From positions 1 through 64,000 of the forward strand of contig NZ_LAJG01000014.1 of NCBI RefSeq assembly GCF_000970455.1: a stretch of DNA of 64,000 nucleotides. The letters are read 5' to 3'. The stretch is from Devosia soli. Its GTDB lineage: Bacteria; Pseudomonadota; Alphaproteobacteria; Rhizobiales; Devosiaceae. Within the stretch, counting starts at the first letter, position 1. Every line of letters starts with the position of its first letter. Both the position numbers and the translations under genes were made by a program. Shown in pieces: positions 18,226 to 41,402 of the stretch. The notes under the pieces were generated by a model. It was not told the DNA's origin, ran no database searches, and worked only from the letters and a program-made list of their open reading frames with translations.

Positions 18226-18300
18226 CAGCCTTCGACACTTATACCTCCCCCGCCCCAATCGGCAGCATTGAGGTGGGGAGTTGAGGCCGTCGGCATCAGC

Positions 18301-19291: not shown

Positions 19292-19936
19292 TCACATTCC
19301 TTGGACCGCAGCACGTCCGAGCTCGCTAAGGCCGTACACGCCTCTGCTCTCACGAACGAACCAGCCGTAGACGTTGCGCCTGAGAATGGCCGGCGCTCTG
19401 CCGACAAGGGTCTTTAGCTGCTTGGGGCTCTGCGGCTGCTCCAGCATCGCCTTGGCGCAGGTGATGCAGTCCTGCCGATAAGCGGTCATGATCGGCTGCC
19501 GACTGCCGCCGCCTCTGTTGGGATCCCCAACTCGGCGCCGATGCTCCTCCAGCAGCCTTGATCGGCGCCGGGTGTCTCGTCGTGGTGTGGCAGCAAACGG
19601 GGCCACAATCACCTCGACTGATCCCGATGCACTGACGCCCAAGAGACCGAAGCCAAGGCGGCGGCAGAGGTTGCGGTAGCGAGCGTCGCGTTCCCTGCCC
19701 TTGCCGCTCCTCGACAGCGCCGCAGCCAACCACACCTCGTCACAGGCCGCGGCTCTGTCGACACCCTGCAAAACCAGCTCGAGGTTAAAGCTCAGCTTCA
19801 TCTCGCAGATGACGAGCACCGGCGGCTCACCTTCCCGCACACCTAACAGGTCACACCCGTTGACCTCGCCCTTCACTGCGAACCCGCGTTCTTCGAGGAA
19901 GCGCTTGAGGGGGAGGTAGAGGTCGGTCTCGGGCAA
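19292..19936 (-). CDS. DUF2161-type protein with PD-(D/E)xK nuclease fold
   Basis: 214 residues. The N-terminus MPETDLYLPLKRFLEERGFAV is followed by NGCDLLGVREGEPPVLVICEMKLSFNLELVLQ. Here D in CDLLG and E-x-K in CEMK form the PD-(D/E)xK active-site pattern of the DUF2161 (putative phosphodiesterase) family. A C-terminal helical part (CITCAKAMLEQPQSPKQLKTLVG) and RNVYGWFVRESRGVYGLSELG resemble a small winged helix. It lies between the small terminase and the ATPase/repeat region on the same strand. Such genes recur in alphaproteobacterial mobile elements; the substrate is unknown. Confidence 0.8.
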   Translation of the reverse strand: MPETDLYLPLKRFLEERGFAVKGEVNGCDLLGVREGEPPVLVICEMKLSFNLELVLQGVDRAAACDEVWLAAALSRSGKGRERDARYRNLCRRLGFGLLGVSASGSVEVIVAPFAATPRRDTRRRSRLLEEHRRRVGDPNRGGGSRQPIMTAYRQDCITCAKAMLEQPQSPKQLKTLVGRAPAILRRNVYGWFVRESRGVYGLSELGRAAVQGM

Positions 19937-23433: not shown

Positions 23434-23631
23434 ATGAACCCGCTGCACCCTAACAAGATGACCTTAGATGAGCGCTTGGCAGAGATCGTGGAGATCCTAG
23501 CCGACGGCGTCATTCGCCTCCGGTCGCGACAGTCAACCGGACTCTCTCCGCAGTCCGCAGATCATCGGCTGGATAGCGGCCTGACACCACGCATGCATGT
23601 GCCCACCGATCACTCAGGAGCCCTTGCATGA
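23434..23631 (+). CDS. Small conserved protein preceding DUF2924 and the recombinase
   Basis: 65 residues, MNPLHPNKMTLDERLAEIVEILADGVIRLR followed by a serine/glutamine-rich region. Small proteins with this opening commonly precede DUF2924 and large serine recombinase genes in alphaproteobacterial elements. Its TGA overlaps the next ATG (23628-23631), so it is part of the recombinase operon. Function unknown. Confidence 0.75.
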   Translation: MNPLHPNKMTLDERLAEIVEILADGVIRLRSRQSTGLSPQSADHRLDSGLTPRMHVPTDHSGALA

Positions 23632-24104
23632 CCGCTGTAGTCAAGAAGACGAACCACGACCAAGACCAGAGCGTCCTCGCTCAGATCGCCGACCTGAAGT
23701 CCCTGTCGATTGCCGACCTCAAGGCGAAGTGGCAGGTGCTGTTCGGCACCCCTGCCCCGCTCTACAACCGCCGCTTCATCGAGAGCCGCCTCACCTACCG
23801 CATACAGGAGCTAGCCTATGGCGGTCTGAAGCCGGAGACCATCAAGCGCTTAGAGGAACTAGGCGAGGAACTCGATGGCGGACGGATCGAGGTCAGGAAG
23901 CGCTCGGCGAACCTCCTGCCGATTACCGGGACGCGTCTGCTGCGGGAGTGGCAGGGCGTTGAGCACACGGTCACCGTTACCGACAGCGGCTTCGACTACA
24001 TGGGGCAGCCGTACCAGTCACTTTCCGCGATAGCTCGGCGGATCACCGGCACCCGCTGGAACGGCTGGACCTTCTTCGGTCTCAAGAACGGGAGGAGCCG
24101 CTGA
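23628..24104 (+). CDS. DUF2924 protein of the recombinase operon
   Basis: 158 residues matching the DUF2924 pattern: the LKAKWQVLFGTPAPLYNRRFIESRLTYRIQEL segment, GGLKPETIKRLEEL, then GTRLLREWQGVEHTVTV, and the C-terminal SLSAIARRITGTRWNGWTFFGL, which is a DNA-binding-like module. DUF2924 genes almost always travel with a large serine recombinase, as here, where the stop and the recombinase start overlap in TGATG. It probably assists integration or recombination directionality, but its mechanism is not established. Confidence 0.9.
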   Translation: MTAVVKKTNHDQDQSVLAQIADLKSLSIADLKAKWQVLFGTPAPLYNRRFIESRLTYRIQELAYGGLKPETIKRLEELGEELDGGRIEVRKRSANLLPITGTRLLREWQGVEHTVTVTDSGFDYMGQPYQSLSAIARRITGTRWNGWTFFGLKNGRSR

Positions 24105-25419
24105 TGGAACGCCCACCCGTTCGAAAGCTCCGCTGCGCTGTCTACACCAGGAAGAGCACCGAGGAAGGCCTGGACATGGCCTTCAACTCGCTCGACGCGC
24201 AGCGGGAAGCCTGCCACGCCTACATCACCAGCCAGCGCCAGGAAGGCTGGATTCCCGTTCGCGACGACTATGACGATGGCGGCTTCTCCGGCGGCAATCT
24301 GGACCGTCCTGCCCTTAAGCGGCTGATGAAGGACATCGAGGATGGCCTTGTGGATGTTGTGGTTGTCTACAAGATCGATCGCCTCTCCCGCTCACTCATG
24401 GACTTCTCCAAGCTGGTGGACGTGTTCGACCGGCACGGCGTCACCTTCGTGTCTGTGACCCAGTCGTTCAACACCACCACCTCCATGGGGAGGCTCACGC
24501 TCAACATCCTGCTGTCCTTTGCCCAGTTCGAGCGGGAGGTCATTGGGGAGCGCGTCCGGGACAAGGTTGCTGCCTCTCGCAAGAAGGGCATGTGGATGGG
24601 TGGCCTGGTGCCGTTCGGCTACCGCGTCGAAAACCGCAAGCTGGTCTTGCGGGAGGATGAAGCAGCCGTGGTGCGGCAGATCTTTGAGCGCTTCCTCAAG
24701 CTTGGCTCGGCCACCCGACTGGCTCAAGAGCTGCAGGAGCAGGACCTACGCACCCGCTCCGGCAAGCCGATCGACAAGGGGTACATCTACAAGCTGCTCA
24801 GCAATCGCACCTATGTTGGCCTCGCCGTGCACAAGGGTACTGCCTACCCCGGCGAGCATGAGCCAATCATCAGCCAGGAGCTCTGGGACAAGGTCCACTC
24901 GATCATGGCCGTGAGCCCACGCTCCCGTGCCTGCAAGACCAAGGCGCAGACGCCGGCTTTGCTCAAGGGCCTGCTGTTCTGTTCGCGCCCAACGGCACGG
25001 CTATGACGCCAACACACACCAGACGCCGCGGAAAGCTCTACCGCTACTACGTCACCACCTCGGTGCTGAAACTCTCGCCAGATACCTGCCCGATCCGTCG
25101 CATCGGCGCAGGCGAGATCGAAGGAGCGGTAATCAACCAGTTGCGGGTGATACTCAGGTCGCCGGAGATCGCGGCGCGAACTGTCGCTGCGACACAAACT
25201 CAGGACAACACAGTCAGCGAGGTGGAGGTGCGCACCGCCCTGCAGCAGTTCGACGGCCTCTGGGATCAGCTCTTCCCTGCCGAGCAGGCGCGCGTCATCC
25301 AATTGCTCGTCGAGCGAGTGGACCTCGGCGTCGACGGGGCCACCATCCAGATCAGGAGCGAAGGGCTGAGCGGCCTGGCCGCTGAGCTGCCCATGATGAG
25401 CAGAAAGGAAGCGGTATGA
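24104..25419 (+). pseudogene. Large serine recombinase split by a one-base frameshift
   Basis: The first frame (24104-25006, 300 aa) has the serine recombinase catalytic domain with nucleophile in VYTRKS (Ser18), YDDGGFSGGNLDRP, DRLSRSLMDF and SFAQFEREVIGERVRDK, then the recombinase domain (GMWMGGLVPFGYRV, SNRTYVGLAVHKG). It ends in an aberrant SRPTARL. The second frame (25003-25419, 138 aa) supplies the missing C-terminal part. Between TTC TGT TCG and AAC GGC ACG, at about 24984-24990, one base is short; restoring a G would read FCSAPNGTAMTPTHTRR. The second frame has its own ATG overlapping the first stop (ATGA), so two separate polypeptides remain possible. Integration activity is doubtful. 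Confidence 0.88.
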
Positions 25420-26675: not shown

Positions 26676-27001
26676 TGGTGCAGCCGAATACTTGCATCGG
26701 TAGTATCCGGCTGCAAGCTTCTAGATGTTGATAATCGTTTGGCGCCTCACCTTGTCGACACCGTTGTAGAAGGAAGAATCCCTGGCTATTGGTCCTGAGG
26801 GAGTTCTCGAGAAACGCCTTGCCGTTGCGCCGACCTAATGTTGGTTCAAACCGCTCATAGCCCTGCTACTTAACACCTCCTACCCACGCTTGCCAGCGGG
26901 CCTGAAACATGGTGCTAAAGGCCTGGCGAGACATAACAGATGTCGGGGACACTCTTCCCGACTACGCCGCAGCTTGGCAGCCTTACGGACAGGGTTTTTC
27001 A
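26676..27001. other. Leader/promoter region of the BREX operon
   Basis: 326 bases without a gene, between a divergent hypothetical gene and brxE. It is less GC-rich than its surroundings. GGACAGGG just upstream of 27002 can serve as ribosome binding site for brxE. No clear operator palindrome was found. The reading frame is open from an ATG at 26909, but the added residues do not resemble BrxE. Confidence 0.45.
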
Positions 27002-27505
27002 ATGGCGAGTAGTTCAGCGGATCAACTTAAGCCAGTTTGGGAAACCAGATTGCTCGTAGGTTTTCTTGGCGAACGCGCGCAGTTTGGATGGTGGCCGACA
27101 GGCTTCTATGAGTCGTCGGGCCGCCTTTTTCTCGAGCCGGTCTTTTCCAGGACACCGCAAGTCGCGCAGTATCATGGGGTCATCGAAGCTGCCCGCCGCC
27201 TCCACGACGAACACCTGAGCGTCGGCACTTTTCACCTATTTCGTCTGCCAGAGGAGATAGAGCAGGATCTCCACGTGCTTGTGCAGACTGCGGCGGAAGA
27301 ATGGGCCCCTGCGGCACTCTATCGAGACAAGCAGACGGCGCTCACCGCGCTTGCCCGTATGGCTGGCGCTTCAAAGAAAGGTGGCGTCGGCCCCATATCA
27401 ATCGGACATGTGAGAGATATTACCGACCACCTGACAGAAATCGCCTCAGTTTACTTGTCGGCATTTTCGTCCAACGCCCAATCTTTCCCATACCTGGTGA
27501 GCTAA
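27002..27505 (+). CDS. brxE: BREX protein BrxE
   Basis: 167 residues from the ATG at 27002, chosen for the GGACAGGG before it and for the family-like opening; an ATG at 26909 would add 31 residues. The BrxE pattern is clear: LKPVWETRLLVGFLGERAQFGWW, FYESSGRLFLEPVFSRT, EAARRLHDEHLSVGTFHLFRLPEEIEQDL. BrxE is known from type 6 BREX loci as the first gene, before brxA. Its biochemical role is unknown. Here it heads an otherwise type-1-like operon, 3 bases before brxA. Confidence 0.85.
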   Translation: MASSSADQLKPVWETRLLVGFLGERAQFGWWPTGFYESSGRLFLEPVFSRTPQVAQYHGVIEAARRLHDEHLSVGTFHLFRLPEEIEQDLHVLVQTAAEEWAPAALYRDKQTALTALARMAGASKKGGVGPISIGHVRDITDHLTEIASVYLSAFSSNAQSFPYLVS

Positions 27506-27508
27506 GCT

Positions 27509-28297
27509 ATGGCGAAGGGCGATCTCTACACGACGCAGTTGCAAGCAGGATTGGGGCTCGTGAGCGAGACCAAGGCACTGTTAGAACTGTGGTCGCCGGG
27601 CATGTCCGTGTCGCAGCTTTGTCAGGTGGCGCTTGATTCGGGCAGGTTTCCGAACGTTACTGCTCGTCGCCTTCGCAATATTGTCGTCGAGTGCTTCGCA
27701 CCTCGTTACCTCGTTTCAAACGGTGCGCCAGCTCAACATCTAAAGCAGGTCGTGGGTACCGTACCCGGTTCAGATCTTGCCCAGCTCATGCTGGTATTCA
27801 CGAGTCGAGCCAACCCGATTTTGAGCGATTTCATTGGGAGCGTCTATTGGCAGCGATATGCCGGGGGCTACACCGAAGTTTCCAATGAGGATGCGCGCGT
27901 TTTCATCGAGCGCGCGATCGACGATGGTAAGACGGCAAAGCGCTGGTCGGAGTCAACGGTCAGGCGGGTTTCCGCTTATTTGACCGGATGTTGTGCGGAT
28001 TATGGATTGCTTGAGCGAGGGCTGCGATCAAGCCGCCGAATACTGCCCTTCAGGATATCGTATCCCGCTGCCGCGTATCTGGCTTTCGATCTTCATTTCG
28101 CGGGCATCGGAGACAATGCCCTGCTGACCCATCCCGATTGGCAACTCTTCGGGTTGGCCCGCGAAGATGTGTTGGATGAGCTCAAGAAGCTCTCGCTCAA
28201 GGGACATCTCATCATCCAGGCCGCGGGCGATGTCGTTCGGATCAGCTGGAAACAACCGAGCATGGAGGCGCTTTGCGATGCCCTCTCTCAGAGATGA
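27509..28297 (+). CDS. brxA: BREX protein BrxA (DUF1819)
   Basis: 262 residues of the BrxA/DUF1819 family: DLYTTQLQAGLGLVSETKALLELW, TARRLRNIVVECFAPRYL, AQLMLVFTSRANPILSDFI and VYWQRYAGGYTEVSNEDARVFIERA. BrxA folds as a small DNA-binding protein similar to NusB-like/RdgC-like helical domains and is a core BREX component. It starts 3 bases after brxE stops and its last 20 bases overlap brxB. No defects visible. Confidence 0.92.
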   Translation: MAKGDLYTTQLQAGLGLVSETKALLELWSPGMSVSQLCQVALDSGRFPNVTARRLRNIVVECFAPRYLVSNGAPAQHLKQVVGTVPGSDLAQLMLVFTSRANPILSDFIGSVYWQRYAGGYTEVSNEDARVFIERAIDDGKTAKRWSESTVRRVSAYLTGCCADYGLLERGLRSSRRILPFRISYPAAAYLAFDLHFAGIGDNALLTHPDWQLFGLAREDVLDELKKLSLKGHLIIQAAGDVVRISWKQPSMEALCDALSQR

Positions 28298-28853
28298 CTT
28301 CGACGAGTTGCGCGAGCGCATCCGACATGGGCGCGAGCTGAGCCATGCCAGCTTCGAGCCCATTTACTATCTGATATTTGCGCCAGACCAGATCCTGGAG
28401 GTGAAGCGCCAGACACCTGCATGGATGGCAAAGCTTCATCAAGAGGGCTGGGACGTTCACCCGTTCTCGATCGCGGAGAACCTATGGGGCATCCTTCAGA
28501 ACGATCCATTTTGGTCCCTTTGTCTGGCGGAAGACAAAGCCTCACCCCAAGACTGGGTGCGCACCAATAAGGCGCTGGCCGATATTGTTACATCCGGAGG
28601 CGGTCTGCTTCGGCGTCTCGAGGAAGCGCTTAGGCCGCTCGAAGCCAAGCCGAACGCACTGCTCCTCGTGACGGATCTCGAGGCGCTGCACCCGTTCCTG
28701 CGCATCGGTGCGATAGAAAGCCAGTTGCAAGGGCAATTCCATGTTCCAACCGTGTTCCTCTATCCCGGCATTCGAACCGGAAAAACCCGTCTGAAGTTTC
28801 TGGGCTTTTACCCGGAAGATGGGAACTATCGGTCCGTCCATGTCGGCGGTTAG
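28278..28853 (+). CDS. brxB: BREX protein BrxB (DUF1788)
   Basis: 191 residues from the ATG at 28278 (MPSLRDDFDELRERI); this start overlaps the end of brxA. DUF1788 hallmarks include YYLIFAPDQILEVKRQTPAWMAKLHQEGWDV, a central NALLLVTDLEALHPFLRIGAIESQLQGQF and the terminal VPTVFLYPGIRTGKTRLKFLGFYPEDGNYRS. BrxB is a core BREX protein that associates with the large subunits. The gene is complete; brxC follows after 29 bases. Confidence 0.92.
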   Translation: MPSLRDDFDELRERIRHGRELSHASFEPIYYLIFAPDQILEVKRQTPAWMAKLHQEGWDVHPFSIAENLWGILQNDPFWSLCLAEDKASPQDWVRTNKALADIVTSGGGLLRRLEEALRPLEAKPNALLLVTDLEALHPFLRIGAIESQLQGQFHVPTVFLYPGIRTGKTRLKFLGFYPEDGNYRSVHVGG

Positions 28854-28882
28854 AAGATAATCAAAGGCTGGGGGGCTGTGCC

Positions 28883-31800
28883 GTGAACATCCGCAATCTA
28901 TTCGATCCGTCCAAGGATATCTATCGGACGATAGAGAAGGTCATCACTTATGGTGCCGCGCAGGAAGCGCGCCTGAAGGCTGAGATCTCCGAATATGTCG
29001 TGACCGAGAGCATCGAGGAGCAGTTCCGAAAACTCCTTGATCGTATGCAGCTCGCCATGGAGGCGGGGGGACAGAACGAGGTTGGGGTTTGGGTTTCGGG
29101 CTTCTATGGGTCAGGCAAAAGCTCTTTCACTAAGTATCTCGGCCTTGCCTTCGACGACCAGCGCACGATTGACGGAACCCCGTTCATGAAGCACCTGCAG
29201 GATCGCCTGCATAAACCCCAGACCAAAGCGTTACTCAGCGCGGTCGTGCAGCGTTTCCCGGCTGCTGTAGTCTTGCTCGATCTGGCCAGCGAGATGCTGG
29301 CTGGCGCAACCATGGAAGAGGTTTCCACGGTTCTCTATTTCAAGGTCCTCCAGTGGGCCGGTTATTCGCGGAATCTGAAAGTAGCCGCTTTCGAGCGAAT
29401 GATCGAAAGGGACAATCGCACCGAGGAGTTGCACCGCCGCGTTGTTGAGGCCTTGCCTGGAGCGACCTGGGACCGCGTTCAGAACAATCCGCTCGCGATC
29501 GACGGGCTTATCCCGAAGATCGCGCATGAGATGTATCCGGGATTGTTCCCCGAGGCAAAGTCGTTCTCTTCAAGCACTGAGGGCTTCTTCCAGTTTGAGG
29601 ATCAACGTGTCCAGGAGATGATCGACATCGTCCGCGAAAAGAGCGGCAAGGAAAACATCATCTTCATCATCGATGAAGTCGGTCAGTATGTCGCGTCACG
29701 CGATAACCTGATCCTCAATCTCGACGGACTAGCAAAAAACCTCAAGCGTCTTGGCGACGGCAAGGTCTGGATCATATCCACGGCGCAGCAAACACTGACC
29801 GAGGACGATCCACGGGCAGCCTTGAATTCCGACAAGCTCTACAAGCTCAAAGATCGCTTCCCGATCCAGATCGACCTAGAATCCAGCGACATTAAGGAGA
29901 TCTGCTATCGCCGATTGCTTGGGAAGTCGCCGGCGGGCGAGAAGCAACTTGGAGAGCTGTTCGATTCCCACGGCCAGGCACTTCGACATAACACCAAGCT
30001 GCAAGACGCCAAATACTACGAAGCGGACTTCAGCCGTGAGACGTTCATAAACCTCTATCCGTTCCTGCCTGCTCATTTTGACATTCTGCTGCACCTCTTG
30101 GGCGCTTTGGCGAAGTCCACCGGCGGCATCGGTCTGCGGTCCGCGATCAAGGTGGTACAGGACGTGCTCAAGGGAGAGGGTGGGACCACGGCGATGGCCG
30201 ATCAGCCGGTCGGCTGGCTCGCAACGACCGTCACGCTCTACGACGAACTCGAGAAGGACATTCGGCGCGCATTCCCGTCGATCCATCAGGCGGTCGGGAA
30301 GGCTCTCATTCGGTTTCCGGACTCGCAACGGCATCAGGACATCGCAAAATCCGTTGCTGTCTTGCAGATCCTCGGCAACTTACCGGTGACGGTGCAAAAC
30401 GTCGCTAGCCTGATGCAGCCGTCGATCACCGCCCCGTCGCAACTCGAGGCGGTGCAAAAGGCGGTCGAGGAAATGCTCGGCGATGTTCACGTTCCGCTAG
30501 GAGAGAAAGACGGCAGTCTCGTTTTCTTGAGCGAGAAGCTCCGGGACATCGAACAAGAGCGTGGCGCATTGGCGCTGCGTTCCGTGGACGTCAAGCGCGT
30601 CTTCAATGACGCCTTGCGCGAGGTGTTCGATCCGCTTCCGCGGGTCAATCTGCATGGCACCCTGGCCGTTGCATCCGGCCTCAAGGTGCAGACGGGTAGT
30701 GCAGTGACCAGCCTTGCCGGCGATCAGAATGCTATCCAGACAATCGTCGAGTTGGTCCCGGCTGCGGACCATGACGCCGGGCGCGCCCGCATGCTCGACG
30801 ACTCGCGCAGCCGTACCGGCCGGAACGTCATCGGCCTTTTGGCGCGGACAAACCCCGACTTGGACGACCTTGCCAACGAGATCTACCGCAGCCAGCGAAT
30901 CGCTGAGCTCCATCGAAACGAGCCCGACCAAGAGGTCCGAGACTACTGCGCCGGGCAACTCGATCGGGCGGCGAAACTTGCCGTTCAATTGCAGAGCAAG
31001 ACTAAGCAGACTCTGCAGGGTGGATCGTTCGTATTCCGGGGCCAAGCCACAGCAGTTTCAGCGCTCAACGTGGACCTGCTGGAGGCCGCCAAGAAGCTCC
31101 TTGCGGACGTCGCCGACCAGGTGTTCGACCGCTACGCCGAGGCGCCGGTCCGCGTCGCCACGGATACTGCTGAGAAATTCCTTAAGGTTGCCAACCCTTC
31201 GGCGATCAACAGCAGCCTGGATCCGCTCGGTTTGGTGCAGACGGTTGCCGGCCGTTCGACGTTCCGCTCCGACCATAAGTCGATGATCAGCATTCGCGAC
31301 TACGTCGACAAGCGGGGCACCGTCGATGGAAAGCGGTTGCTCGATGACTTCAGTAGCGATCCCTTCGGATGGTCGCCCGACACCACGCGCTACATCCTCG
31401 CCGCCATGCTGATGGCGGGGGAGATCAAGCTCAAGGTTTCTGGTCGAGAAGTCACCGCAGCGGGCCAACAGGCGATTGACGCGCTCAAGACCAACAACTC
31501 ATTCAAACCGATCGGCGTGGCGCTGCGGGACGAGCGCCCATCGAACGAGACGCTGGCGCGGGCCGCCGAGCGGTTGACGGATTTGGTCGGCGACACGGTC
31601 ATTCCCCTCGAGCAGGAAATCAGCAAGGCGACCGCCAAGCATTTCCCGCGGTTCCAATACGACTACGGCTCGCTGGCGGAGAAGCTGAGCGGTCTCGGCC
31701 TTGCTGGGAGCGATCGCGTCCAGGCAATGAATCAAGATTTGGCCGACGTGCTCTTTACTGACGCTTCAGACGCGCCGCAGCGCCTGGGCGCGGAGGCTTC

Positions 31801-32509
31801 GGCCCTATACGACAACCTGAAGTGGGCGTTCGAGGTAAAGCGCTCGCTGGACAATGGCCTTGATGGGACCTTGCGGGAGTTGCAGTCGCACCGTTTGGAC
31901 GTCGAAGCGCTTCCCGATACGGGCATCCCCGGCGAATTGCGCAACGAGCTTCGGGAAGACCTCTCGACGCTGTCCGATCGCTTGAAGACGGACGACTTCT
32001 ATAAGCATGTCGCGGATTTCAACTCTCTGCTCACCCACGTTAAAGGGCGTGTCCGCGAGTCCGTGATCGCACTGGGTGATCAGCAGAAGCTTCGGATCAA
32101 AGAGGGTGTCGAGGACCTCCAGCGCCTGTTTGAATGGCCGGAGCTTACCCAGGAGGAACGCGGGAATGCCGTAGATCGACTCGAGGCTCTCGCTCTTGCC
32201 GTTCCGCACGACATGGCCGGTCTGAAGAAGCTCCTGGCCCGCGACTACGACATCAGCAGCACCATCGAGGACATCAAGCGGTCGATCAACCGGCAGCGGC
32301 AAGAGCGCATCCGCCAGGAGCTCGACGAGGAGGCTGCAAAGTACAAGGCGCAAGGCGGCGGCAAGCTCGCACGCTCGATCGCTGTACCGTCCAAACTTTC
32401 CTCCGCCAGCGATCTCGACGCGCTGATCCTTGAGCTCAACGAGATCAAGACCCAGCTCGCGCTTTTCGACGAGATCGAGGTTTCCTTCGTAGTGGGCGGA
32501 GACGAGTGA
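28883..32509 (+). CDS. brxC: BREX protein BrxC, large P-loop ATPase
   Basis: 1208 residues with a GTG start. BrxC (PglY-like) opens with DPSKDIYRTIEKVITYGAAQE, and the ATPase Walker A is VSGFYGSGKSSFTKYL near residue 77. A Walker B-like stretch is NIIFIIDEVGQYVASRDN near 260. The remainder is helical and matches the expected length for BrxC. BREX needs this ATPase for phage exclusion and host methylation. Its stop (32507-32509) lies 2 bases before the pglX ATG, so translation is probably coupled. Confidence 0.93.
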   Translation: MNIRNLFDPSKDIYRTIEKVITYGAAQEARLKAEISEYVVTESIEEQFRKLLDRMQLAMEAGGQNEVGVWVSGFYGSGKSSFTKYLGLAFDDQRTIDGTPFMKHLQDRLHKPQTKALLSAVVQRFPAAVVLLDLASEMLAGATMEEVSTVLYFKVLQWAGYSRNLKVAAFERMIERDNRTEELHRRVVEALPGATWDRVQNNPLAIDGLIPKIAHEMYPGLFPEAKSFSSSTEGFFQFEDQRVQEMIDIVREKSGKENIIFIIDEVGQYVASRDNLILNLDGLAKNLKRLGDGKVWIISTAQQTLTEDDPRAALNSDKLYKLKDRFPIQIDLESSDIKEICYRRLLGKSPAGEKQLGELFDSHGQALRHNTKLQDAKYYEADFSRETFINLYPFLPAHFDILLHLLGALAKSTGGIGLRSAIKVVQDVLKGEGGTTAMADQPVGWLATTVTLYDELEKDIRRAFPSIHQAVGKALIRFPDSQRHQDIAKSVAVLQILGNLPVTVQNVASLMQPSITAPSQLEAVQKAVEEMLGDVHVPLGEKDGSLVFLSEKLRDIEQERGALALRSVDVKRVFNDALREVFDPLPRVNLHGTLAVASGLKVQTGSAVTSLAGDQNAIQTIVELVPAADHDAGRARMLDDSRSRTGRNVIGLLARTNPDLDDLANEIYRSQRIAELHRNEPDQEVRDYCAGQLDRAAKLAVQLQSKTKQTLQGGSFVFRGQATAVSALNVDLLEAAKKLLADVADQVFDRYAEAPVRVATDTAEKFLKVANPSAINSSLDPLGLVQTVAGRSTFRSDHKSMISIRDYVDKRGTVDGKRLLDDFSSDPFGWSPDTTRYILAAMLMAGEIKLKVSGREVTAAGQQAIDALKTNNSFKPIGVALRDERPSNETLARAAERLTDLVGDTVIPLEQEISKATAKHFPRFQYDYGSLAEKLSGLGLAGSDRVQAMNQDLADVLFTDASDAPQRLGAEASALYDNLKWAFEVKRSLDNGLDGTLRELQSHRLDVEALPDTGIPGELRNELREDLSTLSDRLKTDDFYKHVADFNSLLTHVKGRVRESVIALGDQQKLRIKEGVEDLQRLFEWPELTQEERGNAVDRLEALALAVPHDMAGLKKLLARDYDISSTIEDIKRSINRQRQERIRQELDEEAAKYKAQGGGKLARSIAVPSKLSSASDLDALILELNEIKTQLALFDEIEVSFVVGGDE

Positions 32510-32511
32510 CG

Positions 32512-34398
32512 ATGGCCTTCGATCAGCCTACCCGAAACCGCCTCCAACGCTTCGTCACTGAGGCCCGAGGCGCTCTGGAAGAAGAGTTTACGCGTCAGCT
32601 GCAGAATGACTACGGGATGGATCCGGCCTCAGGCACGGTCGCCCCGCTGGAGAGCCTTCGCCACATCGACGACCAGCAGCGCGAGACGGCGCGGATTCTG
32701 CGCGATACACTGGCTCACTATTGCGCCGGCGCCGACACCGACACGAAGGCAGGTCTCGACCGCATCGTGCGCGAACAGGCGTTCACGGTGCTTAACCGCT
32801 TGGCCGCGCTGCGCATGGCCGAGGCGCGAGGGCTGCTGATCGAGTCCGTCGGCAATGGCTACCAGGCCAAGGGCTTCCAGCTCTATGCCCGCCTGGCTGG
32901 TACCGGCCTGGGTGAAACCGGCGACGCCTACCGCGTCTACCTGCAAAGCGTCTTCGATGAGTTCGCGCAGGACCTGCCTGGCCTCTTTGACCGCTACTCG
33001 CCGCAGGGGCGCCTCTTCCCCCGTGAGGCCGCACTGCTTCAGGTCCTGGCACTCATCAACCACGGCGAGATCGAACCGCTCTGGGCCGAGGACGAGACCA
33101 TCGGCTGGGTCTACCAGTACTTCAACTCGAAGGAAGAGCGCAAAGCGATGCGCGACGCGTCCCAGGCGCCGCGCAACAGTCGGGAGCTCGCCGTTCGCAA
33201 CCAGTTCTTCACACCGCGCTATGTGGTGGAGTTCCTGGTCGACAACACGCTCGGGCGGCTCTGGTTCAACTGGACGGGCGGGCAAACCTCGCTGCGCGAC
33301 CGTTGCCAGTATCTGTTGGTGAAACCAGACGAGCAGCCCGAACCTGCCGCGCGCCTGCGCGATCCCCGCACCGTCAAGCTGCTCGACCCCGCCTGCGGCT
33401 CGATGCATTTCGGGCTCTATGCCTTCGACCTGTTCCAGGCAATCTATCGCGAGGCATGGGATTGGGAGCAGGCGAATGGCCCGAACGCGCTGGATCGGGC
33501 AACCGGTGGCAGCCCCGATCTGAAGCCGCTGTCAGAAACCTATGCCGACCAGGACGCCTTCCTGCGCGACGTGCCGCGGCTGATCATCGAGCACAACATC
33601 TATGGCGTCGATATCGACCCGCGCGCGGCGCAGATCGCGTCGCTGGCGCTGTGGCTCCGGGCGCAGCGCACCTGGCATGAGGCGGGCGTGAAAGCCAAGG
33701 ATCGACCGCAGGTGGGCCAGGGCCATGTGGTGGCAGCGGTGGCGCCCCCGGCCGAGGTGGAGCTGCGCAAGCGGTTCATGGAGGAACTCGATCCTCTGGA
33801 TGCCGAGCTGTTCGAACAGACGCTGTTCTTGCTCAAGGGCCTGCCCGAGCTTGGCGTGCTGCTGCAGGTTGAGAAGGAGCTGCCCGCGCTGATCCGCAAG
33901 GTCTTTGGCGAGCATGGGCAAATGTTCGCGAAGGAGGACATGGCGCAGTGGCAGAAAGCCGAGGCGCGGCTCCACGAGGCGCTGACGGACTATGCCCGTG
34001 CGGCGCGGTCCACCTATCAGGGGCGATTGTTTGCCGAGGACGCGCTGCAGGGCCTGCGGATGATTGACCACTGCCGTGAGATCTTCGATGTGGTCGTAAT
34101 GAATCCGCCCTTCGGCGAACTAGCAATAAATTCAAAGGCCGCCTTAGCAAAGGCGTTTCCGCGAAGTAGTAATGATCTTCTGGCTGTATTCGTCGAGCGC
34201 GGACTTGAGCTCATGCGAAAGGGTGCGCAGATTGGAGCGATTACCTCGCGCACCTGCTTCTTTCTTTCGAGCTTTCAGAAGTGGCGTGAAGAAGTTGTAT
34301 TAGGTGTCGCGCACCCTGCGGTTGTTGCTGATTTGGGCTTAGGCGTCATGGATGACGCCATGGTTGAAGCCGCCGCCTATGCCCTGGAGAAGCAATAA
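32512..34398 (+). CDS. pglX: PglX N-terminal half: BREX adenine methyltransferase module
   Basis: 628 residues from the ATG at 32512 (GGAG about ten bases upstream); a GTG at 32506 is possible. It carries the helical PglX start (RNRLQRFVTEARGALEEEFTRQL), the QFFTPRYVVEFLVDNTLGRLW segment, SAM motif I DPACGSMHFGLYAFDLF near residue 292, YGVDIDPRAAQIASLALWLRAQ, and catalytic motif IV MNPPFGEL near 527. It ends in the beta-strand/helix ADLGLGVMDDAMVEAAAYALEKQ that closes the methyltransferase fold, then TAA. Normal PglX is one chain of about 1200 residues; here the target-recognition part is a separate gene beginning at the overlapping TAATG. The methylase motifs are intact. Confidence 0.92.
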   Translation: MAFDQPTRNRLQRFVTEARGALEEEFTRQLQNDYGMDPASGTVAPLESLRHIDDQQRETARILRDTLAHYCAGADTDTKAGLDRIVREQAFTVLNRLAALRMAEARGLLIESVGNGYQAKGFQLYARLAGTGLGETGDAYRVYLQSVFDEFAQDLPGLFDRYSPQGRLFPREAALLQVLALINHGEIEPLWAEDETIGWVYQYFNSKEERKAMRDASQAPRNSRELAVRNQFFTPRYVVEFLVDNTLGRLWFNWTGGQTSLRDRCQYLLVKPDEQPEPAARLRDPRTVKLLDPACGSMHFGLYAFDLFQAIYREAWDWEQANGPNALDRATGGSPDLKPLSETYADQDAFLRDVPRLIIEHNIYGVDIDPRAAQIASLALWLRAQRTWHEAGVKAKDRPQVGQGHVVAAVAPPAEVELRKRFMEELDPLDAELFEQTLFLLKGLPELGVLLQVEKELPALIRKVFGEHGQMFAKEDMAQWQKAEARLHEALTDYARAARSTYQGRLFAEDALQGLRMIDHCREIFDVVVMNPPFGELAINSKAALAKAFPRSSNDLLAVFVERGLELMRKGAQIGAITSRTCFFLSSFQKWREEVVLGVAHPAVVADLGLGVMDDAMVEAAAYALEKQ

Positions 34399-36296
34399 TG
34401 ACTGAATTTCTGCGCCTTTTGGCCGAGGAAGAGAAGTCAAGCGCTCTTCTTGCAGTTTGCGTTTCGCTAAGGTCCGGGGCTCCCGATATTCGGGTGTTCA
34501 ATATGGACACTGCCTCATTTGGTGTGGTTCCGGGAACGCCGTTTGCATACTGGGTTAGCGATCAAGTTCGCAATACTTTTAAGAAATTTGAGCCTTTTGA
34601 GGGCAACGGCCGCGTTGTGAGGCAGGGTCTTGCAACTGCAGATGATTTCCGCTTCGTCAGAGCTTGGTGGGAAGTATCAGCAAATTCCGACAAGTGGCCA
34701 GGTTTTGCAAAGGGGGGGAAGTTTTCGCCTTTCTATGCGGATGTCTATCTTGTCGTGAATTGGGGTGCGGATGGAGCCGAGATCAAGAATAATCTGAATG
34801 AAAGGGGTGGTGTGAGGTCAAACGTATGGATGCTTTCTGACACCGCAGCTAAATACTTCAGAAAGCCCGGCCTTACTTGGCCGTCGCGCGCCAGAAAATT
34901 CGCTCCGCAGGCGCTTGCCAGCAATTGCCTTTTCTCGCAGCGGGGTTACCTCGCATACTTCCCTGATGGGGACCAAATCGTCTCCCTCGCGCTGTTTAAC
35001 AGCGCCGCATTTGATTACATATTCAAGATAACCTTGGGTCGATTTGGCTATCCAGAGTTCTTGGTGGGCATCTTGAAGAAGATGCCCCTGGCTGTGCCCG
35101 ACCCTTCTGCCGCTCAGCGGCTGGAGCACCTTGCACGCACCGGGTGGTCCAACAAGCGCGCGCTCGACACCATTGAGGAAACATCGCACGCCTTTTACTT
35201 GCCTTCTGCCTTGCGGGCGCGACTTGGAGATTACGATCCTTCAGTTATCGAGGCCAAACTTGACGAGATTCAGACTGAGATCGACGAGATTGCATTCGAC
35301 CTTTACGGTTTCAATAACAAGGATCGGGTTGCCGCAATTGGTTCGGCGGATGAAGTTTCCGATGTCGCAGCTGAGGACACAGACGATGGCGAGGACGAGG
35401 ATGCGGCTGAGGCGATCAATCAGACCGACGGTCTGGCCAGTTGGGGCGTAGGCGTTGCCTTCGGTCGCTTCGACTGGCGTCTCGCAACCGGCGAGCGGGA
35501 AGTCCCATCCGAACCTGACCCCTTCGACCCGCTGCCCGCCAAAAGCCCCGGCATGCTGCCCGACAGCGCCGCGCCGTTCCATGTTCACAGTGGCATCTTG
35601 GTGGACGACCAGGGCCACCCTCATGACCTGCCGCGGCTGATCGAAGAAGTCCTCGCCCGCGTCCAGGCGGATGTGCCTGGTGACGCGCGCCGCTGGCTGC
35701 AGCGCGACTTCTTCCCCCTGCACCTGAAGCAATACAGCAAGAGCCGCCGCAAGGCTCCGATCTACTGGCCGCTCTCGACCACCTCGGGCAGCTACACGCT
35801 GTGGCTCTACTACCCGAGGCTGACCAGCCAGACGCTCTATTCCGCCGTCAACGACTTCGTGGAGCCAAAGCTGAGGCAGGTCAGCCGCGATGCCGCCACA
35901 CTGCGCGAGAAGGGCGCCGTCCGCTCGCGCGATGACGAGAAGGCGTTCGAGGCGCTCCAAGCCCTTGAGCTGGAGCTGATCGAGCTGCGCGATACCCTAC
36001 TGCAGATCGCGCCCACCTATCGCCCGAACCATGACGACGGCGTCCAGATCACCGCCGCGCCGCTCTGGCAACTCTTCCGCCACAAGCCCTGGCAGAAGAT
36101 CCTGAAGGACACATGGGCCAAGCTCGAAAAGGGCGACTACGACTGGGCGCATGTGGCCATGGCCTATTGGCCCGACCGCGTGCGCGAGAAGTGCGAGACC
36201 GACAAGTCGCTAGCGATCGCCCACGGCCTCGAGAACCTCTACGTCGAGCCGGAGGCCCAGCCGAAGAAGGCCCGCAAAAAGCGGGGTGACGCGTGA
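34398..36296 (+). CDS. pglX: PglX C-terminal half: BREX target-recognition/specificity module
   Basis: 632 residues starting at the ATG that overlaps the first half's stop (TAATG). Its opening MTEFLRLLAEEEKSSALLAV and VPGTPFAYWVSDQVRNTFKKFEPFEG, RQGLATADDFRFVRAWWEV continue the normal PglX sequence, then the target-recognition region and the C-terminal HLKQYSKSRRKAPIYWPLST, NDFVEPKLRQV and GDYDWAHVAMAYWPDRVREKC. With the first half the sum is about the length of one PglX. No homopolymer is present at the junction; the two frames differ by one base, so a one-base indel could separate or fuse them. The first third is visibly lower in GC than its flanks. Confidence 0.9.
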   Translation: MTEFLRLLAEEEKSSALLAVCVSLRSGAPDIRVFNMDTASFGVVPGTPFAYWVSDQVRNTFKKFEPFEGNGRVVRQGLATADDFRFVRAWWEVSANSDKWPGFAKGGKFSPFYADVYLVVNWGADGAEIKNNLNERGGVRSNVWMLSDTAAKYFRKPGLTWPSRARKFAPQALASNCLFSQRGYLAYFPDGDQIVSLALFNSAAFDYIFKITLGRFGYPEFLVGILKKMPLAVPDPSAAQRLEHLARTGWSNKRALDTIEETSHAFYLPSALRARLGDYDPSVIEAKLDEIQTEIDEIAFDLYGFNNKDRVAAIGSADEVSDVAAEDTDDGEDEDAAEAINQTDGLASWGVGVAFGRFDWRLATGEREVPSEPDPFDPLPAKSPGMLPDSAAPFHVHSGILVDDQGHPHDLPRLIEEVLARVQADVPGDARRWLQRDFFPLHLKQYSKSRRKAPIYWPLSTTSGSYTLWLYYPRLTSQTLYSAVNDFVEPKLRQVSRDAATLREKGAVRSRDDEKAFEALQALELELIELRDTLLQIAPTYRPNHDDGVQITAAPLWQLFRHKPWQKILKDTWAKLEKGDYDWAHVAMAYWPDRVREKCETDKSLAIAHGLENLYVEPEAQPKKARKKRGDA

Positions 36297-38821
36297 GCAT
36301 CGCCGCCTTCATCCGCGACACCATCCTGCGCCCCCGCTTGCTCGAGGCGGGCTGCATGGTCGTCTACGACCCGGATCGACGTTATCAAGCGATTTGCGCC
36401 GGCCTCGAGGACGACCGTATCCGCGTGGTGGATGCATCGGAGAGCAGCATCGAAAGCAGGCTGGCGGCGATCGAAGCGCTGCGCGAGGTCGGTCGGCCAA
36501 AGAGCGACCTAGATGCGGTTCTGATCTACGTGCCCAAGCGGCGGTCGGAGACGGAGGAGGAACAACAGGTCGATCCATTCTCGATCTATGCCGCCAGCGG
36601 CGCCAGGTTTCCGCGGGACGACGGCGACGATTATCTGAGCCTCTGCCTGCGCGCGAAGCCCGACCATTCGACCGAGGTTCGCCGCGTTTTCGCCGGCTCG
36701 CCGTCAGGCCCGGCTTTTTCGGTCATCGATGCGATTGGCGGCGGCGTCAGCTGGCCGCAGTTGCGCGCCGCCCTGAAGGTCGAGTCCGGACGGGAAATCC
36801 TCGTCGCTCTGCTCGAGCCCAGTGTGGCGCAGGTCGACGCGCTCAAGGCTCAGGAGGGATGGGGCGACGAAGCCCGTGAGTTTCTGAGGGCGACCCTGGA
36901 CATGAGCGTCAAGACTAGGGGCAAGACGTGGAATGCCCTCGCCGACGAACTTTGGCGCTATGTGCTTTTCAGCGAATTCGTGTTCGACCTGCCAGTCGCG
37001 TTGCCGGCGTCGCTGAAAGACGTGCCACATGCACCGACCCAGGCAAAGCCGATCGTCGAGGATGTCTGCGATCGGCTGCGCAACAACCCAAATACACGCA
37101 ACACCTACATAGAACGAGCCGAGGCGATTGAAGCCGAATTGGATCTGCCGGATCGGTGCAGTTCGATTGAAGACCTGGGTGAGCGGGACACGTTCCCGTT
37201 CGAGGAGCGAACCTTTCTTAAGGCTGCGATCAAGGGAATCGCGGCCAACGACATGGACGCCGCCCGTCGCGTGTTGGCCCGCCACAAGAACTCCGTGTGG
37301 CTTGGAAAGGGCGAAAGCCAGGCCCAATGGGAGCTGCTTCGCGCCGGTCTCAGCCTCATCGAGGCCTGCGACGATTATGAGCGGCAACTGCCGGAAAATG
37401 CGCGTTCTCAGGCCGATCTGCTGGAATTCTATCTGGGGAGCCTCCGGGAAGCCGATCGCCTTCAGCGCGAATTCGAGCAGGCGGTCGGAGACTTCTTGGA
37501 TCCTCATGGCCTGATGCAAGAGGTGATCGATGAGGCGCGAGCCCGCTATCGTCGTCTCGCCGAGCGAGTCCAAGCCGTTTTCGTCAAACACCTTGAGACG
37601 ACCGGCTGGACGCCACCAGGACGGCTCGCCAATGCCGACGTCTTCGATCGCTTGGTAGCGGATCGCCTGAAGGAGAGCGGACGACGGATCGCTTACCTGA
37701 TGATTGATGCGCTGCGCTACGAACTCGGCGTGGCGTTGGAAAAGATGCTGTCCGAAGACGGACCGGTTGAACTGCAGGCGGCCTACGCCCAGCTTCCGAC
37801 GATCACGCCGGTGGGAATGGCCAGCCTGTTGCCCGGCGCCCGGACGGAACTGACGCTCAGCCTGGAGGGGGACTCGCTGGTCCCGAAACTGGGCGGAGCG
37901 CGTGTCGCCAACGTCAGCCAACGCATGGACGTTCTGAGGAAACGGCTCGGCGACCGGTTCCAGGAGATGACGCTCAACGATTTCGTTCGCGGCAAGCCAA
38001 AAATCTCCGAGACGGTCGACCTTCTCATTCTGAGGTCCACCGAGATCGACAGCCAGCTGGAGAGCAACCCCGAGACTACCCTCGGCCTGATCCCAGGGAC
38101 GCTGAAGCTCATCCGCGTGGCGCTGCATAAGCTTCGCGGGATGGGCTTCAGGGACGCAGTCATTGTGACCGACCACGGCTTCTTCCTGAATGCCCAGGCG
38201 GAAGCAGGCGACGTGTGCATCAAACCCCAGGGCAACTGGCCAATCACCGCACATGATCGGATGATGTTGGGTGATGGCAATGCCGACGTGCACAGCACGG
38301 TCATCGGTGCGGAGAAACTAGGCGTTCGAGGTGATTTCGCGCAGGTCGCCCTGCCTCGGAGCATGGCGCCCTATCGGGCGGGACACCTATATTTTCACGG
38401 CGGGGCCTCTCTCGCAGAAGCTGTTGTACCGGTGCTGGTGGCGCGGCTGGACACCGATGAGCCGGCTGCGGTTGGTCGGGTGACGGTCGTGCTTTCCTAC
38501 AAGAACGGCGCCAAGCGCATTACAACGCGCGTGCCAGTGATCGATATCCGGGTGCAGTCCGACGACATGTTCTCGCTGGATGTGAGCGTCGAGGTGCTGA
38601 TCGAGGCCCAGGACGCCAAGGGCAATGTCGTGGGCGAGCCTCGCCCAGGCGGCGATGTGAATCCCGCCACGCGCACGCTCACACTCATGCCGGGTCAGAG
38701 CAAGCAGATCGCCTTGCGCATGGATCCGGACTTCGAAGGAAAGTTCACGGTCAAAGCGCTCAATCCAACGACACTGGCGAGCTTCAGCACCCTCGCTCTC
38801 GAAACGGATTACACAGTATGA
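36293..38821 (+). CDS. pglZ: BREX protein PglZ, alkaline-phosphatase-superfamily
   Basis: 842 residues with a GTG start overlapping the previous stop (GTGA). The phosphatase-like domain shows RIAYLMIDALRYELGVALEKML near residue 469, TPVGMASLLPGARTELTL, and DAVIVTDHGFFLN near 622, consistent with metal-binding D/H residues of the alkaline phosphatase superfamily. The N-terminal third is helical and less conserved; a beta-rich C-terminus (PVIDIRVQSDDMFSLDVSVEVL) follows. PglZ is one of the two signature BREX proteins and works with PglX. The stop overlaps the brxL ATG (ATGA). No damage seen. Confidence 0.93.
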   Translation: MSIAAFIRDTILRPRLLEAGCMVVYDPDRRYQAICAGLEDDRIRVVDASESSIESRLAAIEALREVGRPKSDLDAVLIYVPKRRSETEEEQQVDPFSIYAASGARFPRDDGDDYLSLCLRAKPDHSTEVRRVFAGSPSGPAFSVIDAIGGGVSWPQLRAALKVESGREILVALLEPSVAQVDALKAQEGWGDEAREFLRATLDMSVKTRGKTWNALADELWRYVLFSEFVFDLPVALPASLKDVPHAPTQAKPIVEDVCDRLRNNPNTRNTYIERAEAIEAELDLPDRCSSIEDLGERDTFPFEERTFLKAAIKGIAANDMDAARRVLARHKNSVWLGKGESQAQWELLRAGLSLIEACDDYERQLPENARSQADLLEFYLGSLREADRLQREFEQAVGDFLDPHGLMQEVIDEARARYRRLAERVQAVFVKHLETTGWTPPGRLANADVFDRLVADRLKESGRRIAYLMIDALRYELGVALEKMLSEDGPVELQAAYAQLPTITPVGMASLLPGARTELTLSLEGDSLVPKLGGARVANVSQRMDVLRKRLGDRFQEMTLNDFVRGKPKISETVDLLILRSTEIDSQLESNPETTLGLIPGTLKLIRVALHKLRGMGFRDAVIVTDHGFFLNAQAEAGDVCIKPQGNWPITAHDRMMLGDGNADVHSTVIGAEKLGVRGDFAQVALPRSMAPYRAGHLYFHGGASLAEAVVPVLVARLDTDEPAAVGRVTVVLSYKNGAKRITTRVPVIDIRVQSDDMFSLDVSVEVLIEAQDAKGNVVGEPRPGGDVNPATRTLTLMPGQSKQIALRMDPDFEGKFTVKALNPTTLASFSTLALETDYTV

Positions 38822-40914
38822 GCGAATTGGATGCACTCGATCGGCAGCTGACGTCGGCGTTCGACGGCAAGGTCGTCCGCAAGGATCTGCTGCATCGGAT
38901 TAAGAAGGGGACGAACGTACCGACATTCGTGCTGGAGTTCCTCCTCGCGCGCTTTTGCGCCAGCGACGACCCGGCCGAGATTGACGCGGGGATGGAGGCC
39001 GTTCTCGCGACTCTACAGGACAATTATGTCCGCCCCGACGAGGCCAATGCAGCCCAATCGAAGGTCGCGACCAAAGGAAAGCACCGATTCATCGACAAGG
39101 TGCATGTGCGATTTGTCGAGAAGGAGAAACGCCACTGGGCGTCGCTGGAGAACTTCAACTCGCAGCGCATCGCCGTCGGTGAGAAATTCTACCGCGACAA
39201 CGATCGCCTGCTCGAGGGGGGGATATGGGCGGAGGTGACGCTAGCGCACAACGCGATCGAAGAAGACGATTACGCTTTCTACATCGAGGACCTGCGCCCA
39301 ATTCAACTCTCGCGCTTTGACTTCGAGCAGTACGCGGAAGGCCGAAAGGCGTTTTCACGGGACGAGTGGCTCGACGCGATCATGCGGTCGGTGGGCCTGG
39401 AGCCGGCCAAGCTCTCCAAGCGGGTGAAGCTACATTTCATCGCGCGACTGGCGCCTCTGGTTGAGCCGAATTACAACTACATCGAGCTCGGCCCTCGCGG
39501 CACAGGTAAGTCCTATTTCTTCAGCGAATTTTCGCCTTACGCCACTCTAATCTCGGGCGGTCAGGCGACCAAGGCGACACTCTTCTATAACAACGCCCGG
39601 CGAAAGGTCGGCCTCGTAGGCTATTGGGACACCGTGGCCTTCGACGAAGTGGGAGGGATCAAAGTGCGCGATCCCGACACCATCCAGATCATGAAAGATT
39701 TCATGGCCAATGGCCGCTTCTCGCGCGGCGCGGAGGTGATCGCCGACGCGAGCTTGAGCTTCGTCGGAAATATCGATCTTTCAGTCGAACAGGTCGTCAA
39801 CTCGACCGAGTACGACCTTTTCCAGCCGCTACCGCCCGAGTTGGACTTGGCGGTGATGGACCGGTTCGCCGCGTATATCCCAGGCTGGGAGATGCCCAAG
39901 AACAGCAGCGAGTTTCTGACGAACCGGTATGGTTTTATTACTGACTATCTGGCCGAGGCTTTCCATTACCAGTTTAAGCACACGAACCGGTATGAAGAGG
40001 TCAGTCGCCGCATCCGACTCGGTAAGGCCATTGAGGGGCGGGACGAGAAGGGCATTAAGAAGACGGTCGCGGCCTTCTTGAAAATCCTACACCCGGACAG
40101 CGGCGCCACCGACGAGGAGTTTGAGGAGTACGTCGCATATGCGACCGAATGCCGGCGTCGGGTGAAGGAGCAAATGAACAAGCGCAAACCCGATGACGAG
40201 TTTGCGCGCATCAACCTGTCGTACTTCGGGGCGAGCGGAGAAGAAATAGTCGTCTTTTGCCCTGAGTCCAGAGACGCGCTCGCCACACAGCAGCCAGAGC
40301 GCCGGCGTCTCAACCAGGATGAGACGGAAGAAACGACCAAGCCACGTGCGGCGCGGCCCGATCCGGTTAAAGCCGAACCATCCGCCGCGCCTGTCCAGCC
40401 GTCTGTCGATGAAGCTCGGGTTGAGGCCGCTGCCGCAGAGCCGCAGGAGCAGCATTTCACAATTCTGTATGGCGACACCGGGCACAGCTACGAGTCGATC
40501 ATGGGACCGTATATCCGCGGAGCCAAGGCGGTCACGATTGAGGACCCTTATATTCGCCTGCCTCATCAGATTCAGAATTTTGTCCGCTTCTGCGAGACCT
40601 GCCTCAAATCGGGTACGGTCAAGTCGATCGACCTGATCACTGGCTACGACGACAAAACTCAACTCGCATACATCTCTGAGAAGATTGAGGATCTGAAGCA
40701 AAGCCTCCTAGAAATGGACGTCGTGCTTAGTGTGAAGCTGAACCCAAACATGCACGACCGGGAAATTCGACTGGACAATGGCTGGGTCATAAAGATTGGG
40801 AGGGGGTTAGATTTTTATCAAAGGCCTGGAAGCTGGTTTGAAATCGGCACGAACGATCTCAGCCTTCGAAAGTGCCTCGAGACAAAGGTCGATATCTTCA
40901 AGACGGCGAACTGA
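38818..40914 (+). CDS. brxL: BrxL-type AAA+ protein with MIT_C (PLD-like) C-terminus instead of a Lon domain
   Basis: 698 residues. The N-terminal DNA-binding part (FDGKVVRKDLLHRIKKGTNVPTFVLEFLLARF, NYVRPDEAN) and AAA+ core are typical BrxL: Walker A ELGPRGTGKSYFFSEFSP near residue 226, SGGQATKATLFYNNARRKVGLVGYWD, VAFDEVGGI, FVGNIDLS, YIPGWEMPKNSSEFLTNRYG. After a proline/alanine-rich acidic linker (about 495-545) comes a different ending from the E. coli protein: FTILYGDTGHSYESIMGPYI, VTIEDPYIRLPHQIQNFVRFCE, DREIRLDNGWVIKIGRGLDF. This is the MIT_C fold of MITD1, a phospholipase-D-like domain. No Lon catalytic Ser/Lys region is present. Confidence 0.92.
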   Translation: MSELDALDRQLTSAFDGKVVRKDLLHRIKKGTNVPTFVLEFLLARFCASDDPAEIDAGMEAVLATLQDNYVRPDEANAAQSKVATKGKHRFIDKVHVRFVEKEKRHWASLENFNSQRIAVGEKFYRDNDRLLEGGIWAEVTLAHNAIEEDDYAFYIEDLRPIQLSRFDFEQYAEGRKAFSRDEWLDAIMRSVGLEPAKLSKRVKLHFIARLAPLVEPNYNYIELGPRGTGKSYFFSEFSPYATLISGGQATKATLFYNNARRKVGLVGYWDTVAFDEVGGIKVRDPDTIQIMKDFMANGRFSRGAEVIADASLSFVGNIDLSVEQVVNSTEYDLFQPLPPELDLAVMDRFAAYIPGWEMPKNSSEFLTNRYGFITDYLAEAFHYQFKHTNRYEEVSRRIRLGKAIEGRDEKGIKKTVAAFLKILHPDSGATDEEFEEYVAYATECRRRVKEQMNKRKPDDEFARINLSYFGASGEEIVVFCPESRDALATQQPERRRLNQDETEETTKPRAARPDPVKAEPSAAPVQPSVDEARVEAAAAEPQEQHFTILYGDTGHSYESIMGPYIRGAKAVTIEDPYIRLPHQIQNFVRFCETCLKSGTVKSIDLITGYDDKTQLAYISEKIEDLKQSLLEMDVVLSVKLNPNMHDREIRLDNGWVIKIGRGLDFYQRPGSWFEIGTNDLSLRKCLETKVDIFKTAN

Positions 40915-41312: not shown

Positions 41313-41402
41313 TGGCGGGTAGGGAGGGATTCGAACCCCCGGAAGGCTTGCACCTTCGCCGGTTTTCAAGACCGGAGCAATCAACCGCTCTGCCACCTAC
41401 CC
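41313..41402 (-). tRNA. tRNA-Ser(TGA)
   Basis: A 90-nt class II tRNA on the minus strand. The acceptor GGGTAGG pairs with CCTACCC, followed by G and an encoded CCA. The anticodon stem-loop CCGGTCTTGAAAACCGG has anticodon TGA. A long variable arm (GAAGGTGCAAGCCTTC) and T arm GGGGGTTCGAATCCC are present. Its 3' end points toward the accessory region on the left, the usual geometry for island integration into a tRNA gene. Confidence 0.95.

Follow-up and report, generated by a model that had tools for sequence, protein, structure and literature searches.

PglX encoded as separate methyltransferase and predicted specificity genes in a type 1 BREX operon of Devosia soli and in related loci

In a 64,000-nucleotide stretch of the Devosia soli genome (contig NZ_LAJG01000014.1, positions 1 to 64,000; here the window), a bacteriophage exclusion (BREX) operon at 26909-40914 carries its pglX as two open reading frames (ORFs), which raises the question of whether this is a damaged gene or an enzyme made as two proteins. 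The accessible text of a 2026 BREX survey (PMC12839542) and of two structural papers (PMC11341690, PMC11842806) describes PglX, also called BrxX, as a single polypeptide responsible for methylation as well as recognition. We find the split of pglX to be real and conserved. Sequence comparison leads us to hold with considerable confidence that PglX is encoded here by two overlapping genes, M and a predicted S that carries the target recognition domain (TRD), which are likely cotranslated and likely reassemble into one BREX methyltransferase.

ORF1 (M; 32512..34398, forward strand, 628 aa from its ATG) holds the N-terminal domain and most of the methyltransferase domain, with the NPPF catalytic motif (motif IV; role taken from the accessible text of PMC11341690) at residues 531-534 (34102..34113). 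ORF2 (S; 34398..36296, forward strand, 632 aa) holds the last ~34 residues of that domain, the TRD, a spacer and the C-terminal part. The stop codon TAA of M (34396-34398) and the ATG of S (34398-34400) have one base in common, reading TAATG (34396..34400); S lies in the -1 frame of M; counted from stop to stop, its frame begins 10 codons before the ATG. The halves tile one PglX, as the PADLOC profile PDLC02527 (1332 positions) is covered from 1 to 658 by M and from 668 to 1305 by S. An earlier note on this DNA had described two ORFs that meet at TAATG, together make up one PglX and have no homopolymer between them, and each of these statements is borne out; inspection of the junction sequence revealed no homopolymer.

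The same split was found in other genomes, where the earlier note had suggested that it be sought. We classed 79 related loci, 78 from named genomes and L004 (labels of this form are our own), as 33 split, 35 fused and 11 unassigned, all 11 of which have no matched M; single-chain PglX is therefore about as frequent as the split form among related loci. Leaving aside L053, which is broken inside M, and L080, whose S genes lie far from M, the split falls at this place in 31 of the 78 named-genome loci, isolates included, 27 of them overlapping and four gapped (L042, L045, L059 and L067). A sequencing or assembly error that broke one normal pglX has in its favor that the two frames are one base away from being continuous at the junction and that the assembly is a draft in 48 contigs, but given this recurrence, and overlaps of only 4 or 1 nt at the junctions described below, we regard its probability as negligible.

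Half-length proteins are common among the relatives of both genes. M has 4840 of 7997 scored relatives reaching 1e-50, and among the 120 listed (query included) 95 are of 629 aa, 24 of 628 aa, and one of 762 aa. For S, 4086 of 7996 scored candidates reach an E value of 1e-10, in a search that admits only proteins of 348-1106 aa, so that single-chain PglX of normal length is excluded; among the 120 listed (query included), at identities of at least 62%, 118 are of 600-660 aa and the others of 513 and 541 aa. At the level of genomes, the M query at 1e-60 matched 1 of 398 genomes of the phylum, the window's own, and the S query at 1e-10 matched 4 of 385 genomes of the class including the window's own, two split and two fused. 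Relatives of S were found in 2 of 72,556 plasmid records (E 1e-30) and 1 of 50,697 phage records (E 1e-10, 20.8% identity), no second S was found in the window's own genome, and no M was found in the genome searched for L044 or for L077. Some public records name the S half "type II restriction endonuclease subunit M" despite its having no Eco57I domain, which hides the split. The Stenotrophomonas isolate L009 and L022, a metagenome-assembled genome (MAG) named Caldilineaceae, have near-identical split pglX, which may reflect recent transfer or a mis-binned contig.

The junctions have a narrow range of form. We scored 32 of them, made up of the 27 overlapping named-genome splits, the window, L003, and L095-L097 (31 distinct, L009 and L022 being near-copies); the overlap is of 4 nt in 26 and of 1 nt in 6, the window included, and the M lengths of 628 and 629 aa match the 1-nt (TAATG) and 4-nt (ATGA) overlap, respectively. 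The deep relatives L099 and L100, outside the 32, have an ATGA junction as read by eye. A Shine-Dalgarno-like site is found at -12 or -11 in 29 of the 32, in the window as GGAG (34386..34389), a possible ribosome-binding site of S; this site also falls within conserved LEK codons and is no independent proof. The S/pglZ (GTGA) and pglZ/brxL (4 nt) boundaries of the operon overlap in the same manner. Ribosomes finishing M would re-start on S and deliver the two proteins in matched amounts. The position of S in the -1 frame at overlapping junctions would equally suit two genes from which a programmed -1 frameshift also makes a full-length chain as the working enzyme; however, the final 45 nt of M contain no -1 slippery heptamer at any of the 32 junctions (the scan was confined to this type of signal), a complete M is separated from a complete S in L067 by 1189 nt holding other genes, and the S genes are kilobases away from M in L080, which makes this very unlikely.

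Could the two-gene form instead represent a pglX that is dead or switched off, comparable to other broken copies? Broken pglX genes have been reported, such as those in Ca. Regnicoccus frigidus, cyanobacterial MAGs with two truncated pglX genes said together to make the full-length gene (PMC9716671, accessible text); these are likewise two genes, but are read there as truncation. Damaged relatives are also present among our loci (L012 with a transposase in M, L042, L045 and L059). Against a dead state, dN/dS in five split pairs is 0.05-0.17 for M 1-500, 0.06-0.11 for the rest of M and 0.10-0.21 for the C-terminal part of S; in some pairs these values cover part of M, as its start is placed up to ~145 codons late in some relatives, and synonymous sites are near saturation in some pairs, the TRD being saturated in four of the five. 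The measurable parts of M and S are under purifying selection. The half-lengths are stable, long split loci keep the other genes of the operon, and among loci longer than 17 kb the operon order is the same in 19 of 22 that are split and 21 of 23 that are fused; we consider a dead state highly improbable. The earlier note had called a real split plausible, and half-length M and S in many relatives, purifying selection and intervening DNA in 4 of the 31 split loci all favor that view.

Individual relatives have been disrupted in different ways. In L012 a DDE transposase gene (8874-9854, minus strand; site 8744-10004) breaks M near residue 602, and the last M codons and the ATGA junction remain downstream. 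In L045 (1992-4383) S is broken between the TRD and the C-terminal part, with an ORF for a HicB-like antitoxin (3209-3487) in between. In L094, a Lyngbya MAG (4349-4861), the open frame of M passes through an insertion of ~0.5 kb, which holds in another frame an ORF for a 23S rRNA intervening-sequence protein (4413-4775, PF05635).

Where the break falls in the protein departs from what the earlier note had stated, namely that the first gene stops after the methyltransferase fold. The break lies at about residues 611-617 of Escherichia coli BrxX, whose methyltransferase domain is given as 211-650 in the accessible text of PMC11842806, and so within the domain, ~34 residues before its end. The half-length PADLOC profile PDLC02532 aligns to PglX/BrxX from about residue 639-645 onward. 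The best structural matches of S are BrxX/PglX, and the structure model predicts a strand, a helix and a strand at its start; S likely supplies the last strand and helix of the methyltransferase domain. In the arrangement we propose, M would lack the last strand of the domain, S would bring the missing strand and helix and then the TRD, and the two chains would lock together at the catalytic sheet, not at the hinge. We infer that M and S assemble, and the joined pair would act like single-chain PglX with BrxB, BrxC and PglZ.

The earlier note had also weighed the case that all close homologues are single chains; instead, close relatives occur in both states, and the state follows the TRD cassette, not lineage. 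The tree of M (64 rows) shows split and single states interleaved, with 13 changes of state, at least 9 of them forced by well-supported branches, compared with 10 changes (at least 4 forced) in the tree of the C-terminal part and 6 (at least 5 forced) in that of the TRD (67 rows each); L053 is absent from the M tree, and in the other two L053 and L080 count as split. A quicker method applied to one set of 69 rows (without L012, L030, L042, L045, L053, L059, L003 and L005) counts 17 changes when the region compared is M 1-500, 5 when it is M 540 to S 300 and 10 when it is S 345-620, which drop to 15, 4 and 8 without three deep rows. The nearest neighbor is in the same state for 38 of 68 rows (L022, the near-copy of L009, also being left out) with M 1-500, for 64 with M 540-628, for 62 with the TRD and for 47 with the C-terminal part. 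Pairwise identities of M 1-500 correlate with those of the C-terminal part (Spearman 0.82) and hardly with those of the TRD (0.17), with which M 540-628 correlates at 0.69. From these tree changes, neighbor states and identity correlations it follows that the TRD moves together with the junction and the last part of M. A single origin of the split with plain inheritance was also considered, and the M tree speaks against it.

Pairs of operons illustrate the exchange directly. Roseivivax lentus (L018, split) and Marivita lacus (L036, single chain) are 89.9% identical over 7972 nt upstream, after which 1.4 kb of L018 (9596-11017, with the junction at 10001) is unmatched, and then 83.8% identical over 10.1 kb. 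In L026 and L031 synonymous changes per site are 0.13-0.28 in M and the C-terminal part and 1.75 in the TRD, so split cassettes are exchanged too. The TRDs of L034, L035 and L071 (Polaromonas, Roseovarius and Pseudomonas) are 63-68% identical, and their C-terminal parts are nearest split rows. Identity between relatives is lowered over the region from about M 520 to about S 330, and in the window the corresponding cassette (34100..35400, forward strand, limits approximate), which spans the last part of M, the junction and the TRD, has a GC content of 0.49-0.59, against 0.61-0.73 upstream and 0.63-0.68 downstream. These comparisons show that a cassette from near NPPF through the junction and the TRD is exchanged between operons, and the one- or two-gene state follows this cassette of ~1.4 kb, not the lineage of the methyltransferase. 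With the gene boundary inside the stretch that is exchanged, a recombination event that alters specificity can at the same time convert a single-chain PglX to the two-chain form, or the reverse. In the Verrucomicrobia loci L047 and L050, with single-chain PglX, a long insertion is found exactly at the gene boundary of the other relatives.

In some loci S stands apart from M. On the Gemmatimonadota MAG contig L080, the order after BrxB and BrxC is S1 (8410-10611), a PLD-type gene, S2 (12161-14218), an AAA gene, further genes and then M (17772-19742), which spans PADLOC PDLC02526 from 1 to 640. S1 and S2 are 88% identical over the 348 end residues aligned and 24% over the 321 before; a search of this genome found only these two S places, on a single contig, and a search of viral contigs for relatives of the L080 S gave no match. 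A HEC-01B-like gene is among those between the S and M genes. The distance of the S genes from M in L080 could be taken to mean that S acts alone, as a DNA-binding regulator or decoy, with M methylating alone or with another partner. We regard this as scarcely credible, as the last part of the methyltransferase domain lies at the start of S, M 1-500 shares with the C-terminal part the history indicated by their correlation, and M and S are one protein in single-chain relatives.

Other genes are found at the boundary in several loci. The complete M and S of L067 enclose small ORFs and a PIN-domain gene (region 8822-10004), which is just over the Pfam cut-off and overlaps S by 4 nt (ATGA). PIN genes also precede S in L037 and, with M damaged, in L042 and L045, and in the Lyngbya MAG one follows M at a contig end, with a PIN match before S on another contig. 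In two loci a different gene takes the place directly before S at which M would be expected: a Schlafen AlbA_2-type gene in L048 (269-1519), whose genome has M on another contig, and an OLD-like TOPRIM gene in L044 (47-646). We advance only tentatively, as a proposal falling a little short of probable, that split BREX are true two-subunit systems with an exchangeable S, in which TRD cassettes carrying the boundary switch PglX between one chain and two, some loci with one M and two S mark two sequences, and the boundary lets toxin-antitoxin or other defence genes settle inside.

Several observations weigh against the account given so far. The related loci were gathered with the S query and the sample leans to this S, the model of S is weak overall (pLDDT 63.6), and neither half reaches the NCBIfam cut-off for PglX (NF033452, 500 bits), M scoring 460.8 and S 237.3. 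With regard to the cassette, L027 has a split-type TRD in a single chain that also contains a long linker, L046 breaks the rule, and three Verrucomicrobia rows are exceptions on the TRD tree, of which the deep branches are long and unsure; the nearest TRD neighbor is in the other state for 6 of 68 rows, and the C-terminal part tracks the state in part as well. L080, the two-S locus, is a MAG.

Among known systems, the closest are the single-chain PglX/BrxX of type 1 BREX (E. coli BrxX, 9EWZ; Salmonella PglX, 8C45), which the halves resemble in sequence, domain order and operon partners, and from which they differ in being two genes with a break inside the methyltransferase domain. As in type I HsdM/HsdS, methylating and specificity proteins are separate, with one M and two S in L080, and the C-terminal domain of PglX has been found to resemble HsdS in structure (PMC11341690, accessible text). 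Unlike the type I proteins, S has no Pfam match at E 0.001, the Methylase_S family included, and carries the end of the methyltransferase domain, and the partners are BREX proteins instead of HsdR; the operon genes scanned match BREX families, HsdR not having been searched for by name. The split PglX would work like HsdM/HsdS, was not found to belong to type I systems, and is a form of BREX type 1. In the type IIB systems BsaXI and BcgI, a methyltransferase protein is joined by a separate S, and the nuclease lies inside the methyltransferase protein. M matches the BsaXI RM protein weakly in sequence and in fold, but its Pfam matches are to methyltransferase models only (PF07669 Eco57I at 68.6 bits, and MmeI_Mtase below its cut-off), although a missing nuclease match is no proof. 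PADLOC-DB holds two half-length models, PDLC02532 (682 positions), which S matches from residue 1 (906.6 bits), and PDLC02526 (640), the one spanned by the L080 M; both are labelled PglX only, and no description of a split was found with them.

The remaining genes of the operon, all on the forward strand, place it in BREX type 1, the set brxA, brxB, brxC, pglX, pglZ and brxL being contiguous at 27509-40914 by PADLOC, Pfam and NCBIfam. Upstream of pglX lie a brxE-like gene (26909..27505; NF033447 BrxE_fam 161.3 bits, cut-off 40; PADLOC BrxE E 3e-4), brxA (27509..28297; PDLC02445 408.9 bits, PF08849 above cut-off), brxB (28278..28853; PDLC02465 352.5 bits, from residue 38 of an ORF starting at 28167, PF08747 above cut-off) and brxC (28883..32509; NF033441 826.7 bits, cut-off 400; PDLC02483 2074 bits). 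Downstream are pglZ (36293..38821; PDLC02561 1347 bits, PF08665 above cut-off) and brxL with a C-terminal PLD-like domain (38818..40914; TIGR02688 486.4 bits, cut-off 329.3; PF13337, PF20442, PF16565). PglZ stays below the NCBIfam type A and B cut-offs (TIGR02687, 79.6 of 270.35; NF033450, 64 of 400), with its Pfam domain above cut-off, and the type 6 BrxE model NF033448 scores 31.1 of 80, though the general NF033447 is over its cut-off. BREX type 6 is marked by brxE together with brxD and brxHI; neither of the last two was noted in 26909-40914, where the ORFs are the genes listed, and no model search was aimed at either. The operon is preceded by a DUF2924 gene and a serine recombinase (window 23628-25006) and followed by a tRNA-Ser (41313-41402), resembling an integrated island, and the tRNA-Ser region has no exact repeat of at least 14 bases elsewhere in the window. 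Phage-like genes, with a type II methyltransferase match and a terminase small subunit, lie on the minus strand at 17156-18780.

BREX, PglX and the half-length PADLOC profiles are already known. The accessible main text of the 2026 survey (PMC12839542) contains none of "split," "fission," or "separate gene," and "split" in the accessible text of PMC11341690, PMC11842806 and PMC12707154 does not concern PglX genes. A search of titles and abstract starts, with preprints and most subscription journals outside it, found no description of an M/S split of PglX, of the cassette rule or of a two-S locus; this suggests that the two-gene form is an apparently undescribed variant of BREX type 1.

The recurrent two-chain form shows where nature cuts PglX. 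The accessible text of PMC11341690 reports that the C-terminal domain of Salmonella PglX could not be expressed alone; the natural S proteins start ~40 residues before the hinge described for that protein, which may be a workable boundary. Near-identical operons that differ in having PglX as one chain or two offer a natural experiment on the evolution of BREX specificity, and the two-S locus makes the arrangement of one M with several S testable. A separate S would let bacteria alter the recognition of their defence while keeping the enzyme.

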